DNA from: a virus
DNA length: 20,099 nucleotides
Direction: 5' to 3' (one strand)
IMG/VR virus record: IMGVR_UViG_3300035698_011383
Span: 1-20,099 of that record
Part shown: positions 1 to 8,326 of the stretch, one piece after another
Layout: each line of letters opens with the position of its first letter
How positions within the stretch are numbered: the first letter of the stretch is position 1
The notes under the pieces: model-generated
What the model saw: only the letters and a program-made list of their open reading frames with translations
What the model was told of the DNA's origin: nothing
The model's database searches: none
Position numbers and translations under genes: made by a program

Positions 1-2991
1 ATCTATTGCAAAAGTATTATAATCTCCCGTAAATGTTATATCCCCTCCAGAAGAAATATCAAGCCCTGCCGGGCTGTTTATCTGAATAACCCCGTCCGTC
101 CCTATTGAGAACATATCGGACCCGCTTACCTGACCCACGATCTCTGTATCATCAATTTGTATTCCATCAAGGGTCGAGTTTTTCGTTCCAGTACCTATCT
201 TGAAATATCCTCCTGAAGAAATCGCTACCGCGCGAGCAAGAACACTTCCTAAAAGCCCCTGGGCGCCTTGATCTCCTTGCGGCCCATTAGCTCCTTGGTT
301 GCCCTGGGTTCCAGTGAGTCCTTGAGCTCCGACGGCGCCAGTTGCTCCTTGGGACCCTACTGCTCCAGTAATGCCTTGAGCCCCAGTGTAGCCCTGATTT
401 CCCTGTGTCCCAGTGGATCCTTGAGATCCTGTTAATCCTTGGCTGCCAGTGACGCCAATATTGCCCTGGGCTCCGGTTGCTCCAGTATTACCCTGGGTTC
501 CCGTGAGCCCTTGGGTACCGACTGCGCCGGTGGCTCCTTGCGACCCTACTGCCCCGGTTGCCCCTTGAGCCCCATCATCTCCCTGGTTACCCTGTGTTCC
601 GGTAGACCCCTGGGCTCCTGTTAATCCTTGGCTGCCGGTGACGCCAATATTGCCCTGGGCTCCGGTTGCTCCAGTAGATCCTTGGCTTCCGGTTGCACCC
701 TGAGACCCCACTGCACCGGTGGCCCCTTGCGATCCTACTGCACCAGTTGCCCCCTGGTCGCCAGTTTCTCCCGTATCGCCTTTTGCTCCCGTCGAACCCT
801 GTGCACCTGTTGATCCCTGGCTGCCGGTTGCGCCCTGTGCGCCCTGTGCTCCCTCTTCACCGGTAGACCCTTGACTGCCTGTTGGACCTTGAGATCCTAC
901 TGCCCCGGTTGCTCCTTGTGACCCTACAACGCCTTGATGGCCCTGTGCCCCGGTGTCTCCCGTCTCTCCTTTGTCACCCTTTGCTCCCGTGGCCCCCTGA
1001 GAACCTGTGGCCCCCTGAGAACCCGTTTCCCCAGTATCACCGGTTACACCTTGACTACCTGTTGTCCCTTGTGCACCGACATCGCCAATAGACCCTTGGG
1101 ATCCCTGGGCCCCAGTTGATCCTTGGTCCCCTACCTCTCCTTGGTCCCCCTTTGCGCCAGTTGTGCCTTGTGCACCTGTTGACCCTTGGGTACCGGTTGC
1201 GCCTTGATTACCCTGAGACCCTGTCTCTCCCGTTACGCCCTGGCTGCCGGTTGGCCCCTGCGATCCCACTGCTCCCGTGGCCCCTTGCGATCCAGTAGTT
1301 CCTTGGTTTCCCTGGTCACCCTCATCTCCCTGGTTGCCCTGGGTTCCGGTTGCGCCTTGCACGCCTGTAACACCCTGGTTCCCCTGTGTGCCCGTTGCGC
1401 CTTGTGCTCCGGTGTCTCCCTGGTTTCCTTGCGCCCCGGTTGATCCAGTGGATCCTTGGGCTCCGGTTGTTCCTTGGTTTCCTTGTGTACCAGTAGTTCC
1501 CTGGGCGCCCGTAGCTCCTTGGTCTCCCTGAGTACCATCCGCGCCGACGTCCCCTGTACCGCCTGTTGACCCTTGCTGCCCTTGAAACCCCTGTGGTCCA
1601 GTGTTGCCAGTAACTCCTTGCGCCCCGGTAACACCCTGGTCACCCTGGTCACCCTTTGCACCCGTAGATCCTTGGCTACCCGTTACGCCTTGGCTACCAG
1701 TTTCGCCCTGATCCCCCTGTGGCCCCGTTGATCCAATTTCGCCTTGCGCGCCGGTAACCCCCTGGGATCCTGTCGTACCCTGGCTGCCGGTTTCCCCTTG
1801 GTCTCCCTGAGTACCCGTCGATCCTGTAACTCCTTGGAACCCCTGGTAACCTTGATTGCCCTGGGAACCCGTTACCCCTTGAGACCCTGTTTCTCCTACC
1901 TCACCTTGATTCCCCGTAGTTCCCTGGTCCCCTTGATTTCCGGTAGTGCCTTGGTAACCTTGATTGCCCTGGCTACCCGTTACGCCTTGGGATCCTGTCT
2001 CTCCTTGGGATCCTGTCTCTCCGACTACACCCTGGTATCCTTGATTTCCCTGTGCTCCTTGTGCCCCGGTTGCGCCTTGGGCTCCTTGTGTGCCCGTGGT
2101 ACCAGTAGATCCTTGATGACCTTGATATCCTTGATTTCCCTGTGCTCCTTGTGCCCCGGTTGCGCCTTGGGCTCCTTGTGTGCCCGTGGTACCAGTAGAT
2201 CCTTGATGACCTTGATAACCTTGGTTTCCCTGTGCTCCCGTGTCGCCTTGCGCACCGGTTTCTCCGACCTCCCCTTGAGTACCGTCTGAGCCCTGTACTC
2301 CTTGGCTACCGGTTACACCCTGGCTGCCGGTCGTGCCCTGACTGCCTGTTTCGCCTTGGTTCCCCTGCGATCCCGTTGATCCCGTAGACCCCTGATCTCC
2401 TTGATAACCCTGGTTGCCTTGAGATCCAGTATCCCCCTGAGATCCTGTTTCTCCGACTGACCCCTGATCCCCGGTAGTCCCCTGGTCCCCTTGGCTGCCA
2501 GTTACTCCTTGGCTACCAGTTGACCCCTGACTGCCGGTGTCCCCCTGGTCCCCTTGTGATCCAGTTGCCCCCGTAGATCCTTGGTCTCCTTGATACCCCT
2601 GCACTCCTTGTGCCCCAGTATCCCCCTGTGACCCCGTCTCCCCTACTTCCCCTTGATTGCCGGTGTTTCCCTGAAATCCTTGCGCCCCGACTACTCCTTG
2701 TGTCCCCTGGAACCCCTGGCTTCCTGTATCTCCTTGATAACCCTGGGCTCCATCCGCTCCGGTAGAACCCTGGTCGCCTTGGTATCCCTGGTTTCCTTGG
2801 GAGCCCTGATAACCCTGATAACCTCGCAGCCCTTGAAATCCTTGTGTACCGGTAACGCCCTGTGTTCCTTCTATGCCCTGGTACCCCTGGACCCCCTGGC
2901 TACCTGGAGATCCAGGGCCACCAACCGGGCCCCGAGCTCCAAACTCATACCAACCAGTGTTATTCTCATTTCTTACTTTGAGAACTGGCAT
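1..2991 (-). CDS. Giant collagen-like phage fibre protein (3' end outside window)
   Basis: At least 997 residues, open at the left edge with no stop in this frame. Residues 1-17 form a short head containing [14 protein letters not shown], the kind of strand that precedes collagen stretches in phage tail fibres. From residue 18 every third residue is glycine: reading the plus strand in 9-base steps, each step from 247 to 2940 begins with NCC, giving 300 glycines with no break. Y is mostly Gln or Thr and X is mostly Ser, Ala, Asn, Asp, Thr, Val, Tyr or Glu. Proline is rare, so stability cannot depend on hydroxyproline. The last 80 or so visible residues leave the repeat (…[19 protein letters not shown]…) and look beta-rich, perhaps the start of a trimerising or receptor-binding head. 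The ATG overlaps the stop of the glycosyltransferase-methyltransferase gene (TAATG). Function is inferred: a trimeric adhesion fibre on the virion. Confidence 0.9.
427..681 (-). repeat. Dispersed near-identical segments in the collagen array, 189 bp apart
   Basis: The segments starting at 427 and at 616 are nearly identical for about 60 bases, differing by one base near the middle (agt versus ggt). The offset of 189 bp is 21 Gly-X-Y triplets. This is an older in-register duplication than the one at 2036-2217. Confidence 0.85.
2036..2217 (-). repeat. Perfect 90-bp tandem duplication in the collagen array
   Basis: Two adjacent, apparently identical 90-bp units (2038-2127 and 2128-2217), each encoding ten Gly-X-Y triplets. 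The match extends about two bases to the left. A third, diverged copy begins at 2218. The period is an exact multiple of nine, so the collagen register is kept. Such exact identity in a region where other triplets have drifted indicates a recent duplication. Confidence 0.93.
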
Positions 2992-4262
2992 TAGATCAAT
3001 ATTTCTCCTACTGGCCGCTTAGAATACGGGCCCTTTATTGCGATTAAGTCTGCTTGAACTATCGGGATATTATTGTCTTTTTCAAAATCAGACGGGAAGT
3101 AGGTGACGATCCGACTCTTCTGAAAGCGGCCCTTGAAACTCGGGACATACTTTGAATAGAACTTGTCCGTGTAATACCAGAATGAGTTTTCGTTCCAGTA
3201 TGATATATGACTCGGATCCTGGAAGGCGCCGCGACCGTCCGTCGACGGGACATCTATAAATAACCACCCGCCAGGTGCCAGAACCCTATACGCTTCGTTC
3301 ATAGCGTGGATCGGATCCTTGAGGTGCTCGAATATATGGGATGCTCGGATTACTCCAACGCTATTTGGTGGGAATGGCCAGCTTTCATTTAGGTCTGTAA
3401 CTATGTCACAACCCAGTAAATCGACGGAAGAGTATCCTTCCCAGTGGTCGAATCGCCCTCCCAGGTCTATTAGTTCAAGATCCCCATCTACCGCCCACTT
3501 TGTTGCCATATCCCTGCTGTACTTCAAATAATTCCGTAACGTCTGCGCCTGGACGTCCTGATTATAAACCACGCAGGTGTTGTCGCCGTGTGTCCGGTAG
3601 AGATATAGGCACTTATCAATATGCTTTATCCCCTTCGCTCCGTATTTTATGTAATACCGGCAGCATAGATCGTGGTCATCTCCGGTCATTATAGTCTTGT
3701 CGTGGCCGCCGATCAGCTCGTATGAGTCTGTTCTCCACGCTCTAATATGGTTTGGGGCCCAAAAAATAAAGCGCATCATCTGAGAGGATGGTTCCCAGGC
3801 GATCATCTCGTCTAACTTGTGTCCTTTGTACTCAAAAGGTCGGTGTTTCCATCCCCAGTAGTCCGAGTAATGCTTCGCTTCCCAGGTGCCGTTCTTGAAC
3901 TCTGCGCTATTTGAATACACCATAACAACGGATGAATCCCTGAACGCCTTCTCTACTTCTTTCAAGGCGTCGGGAACCAACAGATCATCGGCGTCTAATT
4001 CTACGAGTATGTCCCCCTTTGCCTTTTCACACGCTATTTTCTTCAATCTCCCGATCCGGTTATGGCTTTCTCCATAGTCGTCATCTTTGGTAGAGAATAC
4101 CCTTACCCGCTTGCATTTCTCTACTCCCTTGGGGATCTTTCCACCGGCATTAGTCAACAGGATCCACTCCCAGTCTCTATACGACTGAGCTATTAAAGAC
4201 GCGTAAGCCTCTTCGATATAAGCGTTTGACTTCTTATAAACTGGCGTTATTATTGAGATCAT
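2991..4262 (-). CDS. Fused GT2 glycosyltransferase and SAM-dependent methyltransferase
   Basis: 423 residues in two domains. Residues 1 to about 235 are a family 2 glycosyltransferase (GT-A fold). ISIITPVYK is the first nucleotide-binding strand, ELDADD (89-93) is the DxD metal and sugar-nucleotide site, and [12 protein letters not shown] (193-204) with H225 lies where the catalytic acid and the late metal ligand are expected. Residues about 262-390 are a class I methyltransferase: IDLGGR (motif I region), EGYSSVDL, then [10 protein letters not shown] and [15 protein letters not shown] as in Methyltransf_11. No membrane segment is seen, so a cytoplasmic enzyme is expected. It has a good ribosome site (AAGGAG, 5 bases before ATG) and its stop overlaps the start of the collagen fibre gene as TAATG. 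From this position I infer that it glycosylates the fibre and that the second domain methylates the sugar. Sugar and acceptor are unknown. Lipopolysaccharide or host glycan modification is the alternative. Confidence 0.87.
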
Positions 4263-4272
4263 ACATTCTCCT

Positions 4273-4596
4273 TTACAGTTCTATCCATATCTGCCCGGAA
4301 ACCGGTGAGGTGGGGGCGGTTTCGGATATATTTGTTATTCTTAACTCTCCCGATGAGGTAACAACAGTGATTGGCAGCTCTCCAAGGGCCACTCCGTAAA
4401 ACTTCGAGTTATAGGCCACACAGGCTTTCACTCCAGAGGCAGCGGCAACTATGAAGAGGGTATCATCGTCCGGTACGTCATCCGGAACCGCCGAAACAAA
4501 CTCGGTCTTAAACGATTTAGCATATTCCAGGAAGTCTCGCAGCTTCTCGGAGTCCTCCTGGGTTGGGTTCATTAAGTCTATTTCTGGAGTTATCAT
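4273..4596 (-). CDS. Small hypothetical virion-associated protein
   Basis: 107 residues, family not recognised. The N-terminal half is acidic and probably helical (residues 10-35). The C-terminal half looks beta-rich and ends in SGQIWIEL, a Gly-Gln-Ile-Trp type ending often seen in small phage fibre or baseplate-associated proteins. The start overlaps the stop of the large neck/tail gene (ATGA), and the stop lies inside the ribosome-site region of the glycosyltransferase-methyltransferase gene, so all three are likely co-translated. The position between the neck/tail protein and the fibre suggests an adaptor or small tail component. This rests on context only. Confidence 0.75.
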   Translation of the reverse strand: MITPEIDLMNPTQEDSEKLRDFLEYAKSFKTEFVSAVPDDVPDDDTLFIVAAASGVKACVAYNSKFYGVALGELPITVVTSSGELRITNISETAPTSPVSGQIWIEL

Positions 4597-7771: not shown

Positions 7772-8326
7772 TTACTTTAAGATTCCGTTTACCCTAACAA
7801 CACCATCGGATGCGGCGCCAGTAGTTAGAATTAGACTCACCCCGCCCTCGTCCTGTGAAGGAGGGTCAAAGTATTCTATCTTCTGGCCGGCTGCCCCGAG
7901 CTTAACACTATCAACGTATCTATCAGTGGGAGACTTGTCCCATTCTAATAGACCGTCTACCGCGCTTAGACTGGACCAGGATATTCCGGTAATCATCAGT
8001 CTCCTTCCAGCCGGAGTTTTCCACGGTCTAAAGGTTTCGGTATTGGTCAGTAGCTGGTTTGAAACCTGGGTAGTGTACTCATAATAAAGAACCACCGGCT
8101 GATCGGGGATCTCATAGGGAGGCACCGGCGTGTATTGTGGCGTCGGTGTTACAGTCGGCGTTGGCGTTACACTCGGCGTCGGTGTTACAGTCGGCGTTGG
8201 CGTTACACTCGGCGTCGGTGTTACAGTCGGCGTTGGCGTTACACTCGGCGAAGGAGTTGGCGTCTGGGCCATCAAAACAGTGGGCACAACCAGGAGCAAC
8301 CCCACAATCAATATAATCTTCTTCAC
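7772..8326 (-). CDS. Secreted protein with signal peptide, Thr/Pro repeat linker and C-terminal beta domain
   Basis: 184 residues. The start is GTG at 8326, with AAGGAG 8 bases upstream. Residues 1-20 are a classic signal peptide (Lys-Lys, a hydrophobic core, then VLMA before Gln21). No cysteine follows, so it is not a lipoprotein. Residues 21-70 are a Thr/Pro/Ser/Val repeat built from a 12-residue unit (PSVTPTPTVTPT) repeated three times, which gives an extended and potentially O-glycosylated linker. Residues 71-184 are a compact, strand-rich domain with no family I recognise (PAGRRLMITGISWSSLS, GGVSLILTTGAA). It lies among structural genes, between the capsid and connector genes. Exported phage proteins can act in superinfection exclusion, host-surface modification or lysis. 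None of these is shown here. Confidence 0.82.
   Translation of the reverse strand: MKKIILIVGLLLVVPTVLMAQTPTPSPSVTPTPTVTPTPSVTPTPTVTPTPSVTPTPTVTPTPQYTPVPPYEIPDQPVVLYYEYTTQVSNQLLTNTETFRPWKTPAGRRLMITGISWSSLSAVDGLLEWDKSPTDRYVDSVKLGAAGQKIEYFDPPSQDEGGVSLILTTGAASDGVVRVNGILK
8142..8249 (-). repeat. Three perfect 36-bp tandem repeats encoding the Thr/Pro linker
   Basis: Identical units at 8142-8177, 8178-8213 and 8214-8249, each encoding twelve residues of the Thr/Pro/Val/Ser linker. Diverged partial units flank them. Unit length is a multiple of three, so copy-number change would lengthen or shorten the linker without a frameshift. Confidence 0.95.

Follow-up and report, generated by a model that had tools for sequence, protein, structure and literature searches.

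Among the described systems closest to the protein treated here is A064R of the chlorovirus PBCV-1, a proven viral single-chain enzyme with two glycosyltransferase (GT) domains and a methyltransferase, which acts on a virion glycan (PMC9614988). Our subject is a GT2-methyltransferase fusion encoded directly ahead of a collagen-like tail fibre gene in a 20,099-base phage fragment (IMG/VR virus record IMGVR_UViG_3300035698_011383; the whole stretch is called the window below). Both proteins unite a GT and a C-terminal methyltransferase in one virus-encoded chain, the latter a sugar O-methyltransferase in A064R and predicted to be one here. A064R differs in having three domains, two of them rhamnosyltransferases against a single GT domain in the window enzyme (Pfam and structural model), in its substrate, the N-glycan carried by the major capsid protein, and in its eukaryotic host. 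Mimivirus L230 glycosylates the collagen-like proteins of its own virus (PMC9614988). It combines a lysyl hydroxylase with a glucosyltransferase acting on hydroxylysine and has no methyltransferase, whereas the window enzyme contains no lysyl hydroxylase domain recognized in Pfam or NCBIfam scans, and the window fibre has only 8 lysines in 997 residues. The BclA collagen of the Bacillus exosporium carries glycans ending in a methylated sugar (PMC6222408; PMC3368898), as is proposed here for the fibre, but is a spore protein. Virion-glycosylating actinobacteriophages (Freeman 2023, cited in PMC13313380) possess phage GTs and sometimes a separate methyltransferase gene, an architecture that differs from the fusion, and as described there collagen fibres are not implicated. 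A full-length member of the family, 41% identical to the window protein, is g90 of Synechococcus phage S-CRM01 (annotated methyltransferase / glycosyl transferase). This phage also has collagen tail fibres; unlike the window gene, g90 lies among small unassigned genes near psbA, 51 kb from the nearest collagen gene. In the literature searched we know of no phage enzyme that modifies phage collagens. The novelty claimed in the initial annotation is therefore a partial one: the principle is known from A064R and L230, and what is new concerns phages, the GT2-methyltransferase architecture and its pairing with a fibre.

The enzyme and fibre genes overlap exactly as first reported, the enzyme stop (2993–2991) and the fibre ATG (2991–2989) having one base in common (TAATG). 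The Shine-Dalgarno-like AGGAGA (3009–3004) lies inside the enzyme codons for the C-terminal PVGE, and PVGE with a purine-rich stretch is also present in L003, L307, L308 and L310 (lineages of the family are given by number). The open reading frame (ORF) is considered real since 200 shuffles of this DNA gave open stretches of at most 186 codons, against 423 residues here, and the same domain order could be aligned in 70 lineages. These lineages were used for the conservation analysis and for a maximum-likelihood tree.

That one chain carries a GT-A glycosyltransferase with a DADD motif and a class I methyltransferase was borne out by profile matches. Residues 3–147 match PF00535 (E=1.7e-12; 48.1 bits against a cut-off of 23.3), the DADD stands at residues 90–93, and residues 287–336 match PF08241 (E=1.1e-9; 39.2 bits against a Pfam cut-off of 21.2), the methyltransferase also matching PHROG 6636. 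In the GT half D90, D92, D93 and D196 are identical in 70/70 lineages. Methyltransferase motif I reads DLGG(R/G), DLGGR in the window, and not GxGxG; its D266 is found in 63/70 and G269 in 60/70 lineages, while the acidic residue that follows strand 2, D281, is present in 68/70, as are E312 and H313. The most conserved part of the protein is a loop, residues 339–363, with a mean consensus frequency of 0.92 compared with 0.49–0.63 elsewhere; within it G343, G345, A346, D349, P350 and H352 occur in 70/70 lineages. The window enzyme thus shows both marks of this phage family, two domains in a single chain and the conserved loop. An AlphaFold2 model built with 43 related sequences was of good overall quality (pLDDT 87.8, pTM 0.89), with low confidence at residues 345–351. 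We infer for the loop a role in substrate binding and a methylation chemistry common to the family, and the low model confidence at 345–351 fits a loop that becomes ordered upon binding.

A first scan of viral contigs returned 76 relatives, and one based on an alignment gave at least 589 matching stretches. Of 50,697 phage records, that of S-CRM01 alone contained the whole fusion. It was found in one of 398 sampled bacterial genomes, all Pseudomonadota (cyanobacteria and Bacillota were left out of the sample), and there on a phage contig that is also a viral record; no whole fusion was found in plasmids. Because the single bacterial occurrence is on a phage contig and plasmids yielded none, this is taken to be a phage family, and within the samples searched the fusion is apparently restricted to phages.

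The window belongs to a 15-lineage clade (support 100/99), every member of which has a collagen gene within 3 kb of the enzyme. In the window and in L003, L308, L310, L311, L316, L317 and L318 the fibre gene begins at the enzyme stop, either overlapping or abutting it; in L307 the fibre starts 168 bases after the enzyme, and in L002 a sugar-nucleotide dehydratase/epimerase gene (L002:11275-12267) stands between the two. Collagen directly precedes the enzyme in L312 and L313 of the clade and in L354, L360 and L370 outside it. The fibre leaders are alike ([IV]RNETNTGWYxFG), and a scan of viral contigs with the leader NTGWY[DE]FG alone revealed two loci, both directly behind a GT2-methyltransferase enzyme, one of which (L288) the first enzyme scan had missed. 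A tblastn search with the leader gave no match in cultured phages, though with so short a query low-complexity filtering may hide one. The backbones around the cassette are clearly different: L317 has a GH25 lysin beside it and L308 a DUF1833 tail protein, and the window terminase was undetected in 16/16 related records (fragments among them). Searches of viral contigs with the tail protein and terminase of the window virus produced no relatives. Recurrence of the pairing in unrelated phages makes decoration of the fibre the most likely role of the enzyme.

We propose, with moderate confidence and on the basis of the genomic coupling and the conserved active sites, that a cytoplasmic enzyme O-glycosylates the collagen fibre and methylates the sugar. 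The enzyme would be soluble, and would be made late in infection and translated together with the fibre, translational coupling through TAATG and the ribosome-binding site inside the enzyme gene keeping enzyme and substrate in step. Its GT2 domain would draw on a nucleotide sugar made by the host and attach the sugar to Ser/Thr hydroxyls of the nascent fibre, or to a first sugar there, and the fused methyltransferase would then O-methylate that sugar as a cap. A fibre so decorated might gain stability, or be better shielded from proteases or decoys. What the sequences show are the two domains with their conserved catalytic residues, the overlap of the genes and the recurrent pairing with collagen; the activity, the donor, the acceptor residue, the fibre as substrate and any benefit are inferred. 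No recognized sugar-nucleotide gene was detected in profile scans of the window ORFs. The dehydratase/epimerase gene of L002, and another in L378 (L378:1945-2961, four called genes upstream of the enzyme), suggest that some phages may also make the donor sugar. DNA glycosylation was regarded as an improbable role, given that the gene is late and lies among tail genes.

Collagens are widespread components of phage tail fibres. If the proposal is correct, this would be the first enzyme of bacterial viruses dedicated to collagen modification. It might help to explain how phage collagens function with so little Pro, and it would offer a compact tool with two activities for placing methylated sugars on recombinant collagen; with S-CRM01 in culture, the question of collagen modification is testable now.

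The fold of the GT half does not identify the acceptor. Its best matches among GT-A enzymes (VIA-align Z 20–24, up to 24.2) include K4CP (chondroitin polymerase), heparosan synthase 2, WrtF, SpsA and RmlT, with the polypeptide GalNAc-transferases ranking lower (Z ~18). The nearest solved GT domains, those of K4CP, TarS, TarP and RmlT, act on polysaccharides and teichoic acids, and phage GTs encoded in tail-fibre regions are usually interpreted in publications as altering the host surface (PMC7029224). An enzyme changing O-antigen, capsule or teichoic acid, and with it the receptor, could block coinfection or the release of progeny onto debris, and it would lie near fibre genes as host-recognition genes travel together. 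The UDP-galactopyranose mutase and additional GT beside the enzyme in some cyanophage-like lineages suit such a role. On the other hand, the window gene overlaps a late structural gene, and the pairing recurs across backbones with differing tail and lysis genes, where one conserved enzyme for many different surfaces is less expected. Nor was a flippase or a GtrA/GtrC-type membrane partner found among the 20 window ORFs scanned, distant or unrecognized ones being possible. A host-surface target is on balance considered unlikely.

The fibre ORF matches PF01391 with E=2.3e-140 and consists of a short leader followed by about 300 GXY triplets. The record ends inside this gene after 997 residues, to which the following figures refer. 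At the Y position 52% of triplets have Gln and 34% have Thr. Pro is almost absent. The initial annotation had counted on well over a hundred Thr/Ser residues, and 140 Thr and 78 Ser are indeed present, with only 8 Lys. Their abundance did not hold up as a sign of acceptor sites: E. coli prophage collagens also prefer Thr at Y, and one of them was unglycosylated when recombinant (PMC3368898). Thr/Ser at Y was likewise rejected as a marker of enzyme-linked collagens, the median fraction being 0.19 beside the enzyme and 0.22 in distant collagens (P=0.49). Collagens near the enzyme have somewhat more Ser/Thr (P=0.012) and less Pro (P=0.001) at X, a weak signal, the P values being uncorrected and the lineages related.

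Across the whole family, collagen was found within 5.5 kb of the enzyme in 37 of the 55 lineages with enough flank and near 0/45 control anchors (Fisher P=4e-14), these being portal or ribonucleotide reductase genes, not tail genes, from unmatched habitats. When only records of at least 40 kb are compared, 15/18 with the enzyme contain collagen somewhere, versus 3/16 without it (P=0.0004), the lineages not being fully independent, with some near-copies (13/14 after merging). The search for this architecture with collagen, suggested at the outset, therefore returned a recurrent association, complete in the window's clade and visible as an excess of collagen in enzyme-bearing records; homologues consistently without collagen and next to lipopolysaccharide or nucleotide-sugar genes were not seen overall.

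Besides the choice of anchors and the relatedness of the lineages, several observations weigh against the fibre as substrate. The Thr+Ser content at Y is no higher beside the enzyme, motif I of the methyltransferase is degenerate, and a recombinant phage collagen without sugar is stable to 42 °C (PMC3368898). In the records of at least 40 kb, collagen lies within 3 kb of the enzyme in 7/18 where 3.7 are expected, only mildly above random, so that tight pairing is regarded as characteristic of the window's clade and of certain others. Of the lineages with enough flank, 18 lack collagen within 5.5 kb, and besides S-CRM01 with its 51 kb, related cyanophages have the enzyme 30–50 kb from any collagen. 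Some cyanophage-like lineages have the enzyme in a sugar cluster with the mutase and GT mentioned above, and in one clade it adjoins recombination-like genes (named by eye, without a Pfam match). The enzyme can therefore not be called dedicated exclusively to the fibre, as had first been supposed.

Two further explanations were considered. In T4-like lineages the enzyme precedes a head-tail adaptor gene with collagen 2–5 kb off, which would suit an enzyme whose target is a different virion protein, or several of them (capsid, tail tube, baseplate, adaptor), with collagen only as a neighbour. Some actinobacteriophages are reported to have glycosylated virions, and the same is suggested for Rhodococcus phages that encode both a GT and a methyltransferase (PMC13313380, citing Freeman 2023); the Che8 glycosyltransferase appears, weakly, among the viral fold matches. 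We regard this as rather improbable, the collagen fibre being the constant neighbour throughout the window's clade while other structural genes change. Far less probable still is ordinary hitch-hiking, in which the enzyme is a passenger of a tail-fibre cassette and has lost, or never had, a role at the fibre. Tail regions do exchange in blocks and many lineages possess the enzyme without adjacent collagen, but nearly every lineage has kept the catalytic residues and the adjacency recurs both before and after collagen. Because the enzyme adjoins collagen on either side, the pairing is not one inherited block, and decoration of the fibre remains the preferred explanation.

In T4-like lineages a DUF6445 protein adjoins the enzyme, and 33 of the 59 lineages in which this could be determined have one within 3 kb. 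Its HxD, H and R are invariant, 2OG-Fe(II) oxygenases such as OGFOD1, PHD2 and P4H fill the top fold matches of its model, and PHROG 1644 labels these proteins 'minor coat protein'. L073 possesses a PF13640 oxygenase beside the DUF6445 protein as well. These predicted folds make the DUF6445 proteins possible fibre hydroxylases. A hydroxylase and a GT beside collagen recall the modification of animal collagen. Tentatively, and with more doubt than confidence, we suggest an animal-like modification of phage collagen, in which a dedicated GT2-methyltransferase cassette moves with the fibre, oxygenases are added in T4-like relatives, and the fibres are hydroxylated and/or capped with O-methyl sugars. 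The hydroxylase part stays a lead, since the 20 kb of the window contain no DUF6445 or oxygenase gene. The coordinates of these and the other features are collected in Table 1.

Table 1. Features of the window and of the oxygenase-like neighbours in relatives
Feature	Coordinates	Strand	Extent	Basis
GT2-methyltransferase fusion gene	2991..4262	(-)	423 aa, ATG to TAA	Profile matches, alignment, AlphaFold2 model
GT-A (GT2) domain	3558..4262	(-)	~residues 1-235	PF00535 and fold matches
DADD (DxD) motif	3984..3995	(-)	residues 90-93	Conservation in 70 lineages
Class I S-adenosylmethionine (SAM) methyltransferase domain	3033..3482	(-)	~residues 261-410	PF08241/PF13489, PHROG 6636
Degenerate methyltransferase motif I, LIDLGGR	3453..3473	(-)	residues 264-270	
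Most conserved loop of the family	3174..3248	(-)	residues 339-363	Consensus frequency
TAATG, enzyme stop overlapping fibre start	2989..2993	(-)		Sequence
AGGAGA, Shine-Dalgarno-like, ahead of fibre	3004..3009	(-)		Sequence
Collagen-like tail fibre	1..2991	(-)	cut by record end	PF01391, PHROG tail fibre families
Small ORF upstream of enzyme in cassette, C-terminus ISETAPTSPVSGQIWIEL	4273..4596	(-)	107 aa	Similar C-termini in relatives
Terminase, portal-like protein, Phage_capsid_3 capsid, SU10-type adaptor, weakly matched virion protein		mostly (-)		Profile matches
DUF6445 proteins beside enzyme	L073:11236-11886; L074:9403-9987; L041:9400-9987; L044:11234-11806			Motif and predicted fold

Nearly all window genes are carried on the minus strand. 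Between the capsid and adaptor genes a 184 aa protein (7772-8326, minus strand) has what looks like a signal peptide, and a linker built of PTPTVTPTPSV repeats, and gives weak matches only, to PHROGs of unassigned function. Nothing was found in support of the earlier idea that its Thr/Pro linker is a second acceptor; if the signal peptide works the protein would be exported, and an enzyme confined to the cytoplasm would have to modify it beforehand. The ORF preceding the enzyme frequently has the C-terminus TEPxxPxxGxxW. Similar C-termini occur in L003, L307, L308, L310, L311, L316 and L317, so that the window protein at 4273-4596 and seven relatives, otherwise different, have the tag ISxTEPxxPxxGxxW in common.

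In L003 (L003:9995-11262; a 34.8 kb record whose contig is also L080 and is binned in a Phenylobacterium metagenome-assembled genome) the coding sequence of the enzyme is divided between two frames that overlap, either through a sequencing error or as a broken copy. Within the first 10 kb of L073 and L028 the enzyme is directly preceded by an unbroken run of four tail genes that contain collagen, one of them mainly of G(T/S)S type with no Gln at Y; the 16 GSS-type triplets of L068 were left out of the collagen labels on the tree. Downstream of the enzyme in L313 are a Cys-rich protein with ACSCNATCYGY repeats (L313:7773-8330) and an ORF with a radical-SAM-like CxxxCxxC (L313:8363-9061), which are perhaps another modification pair.

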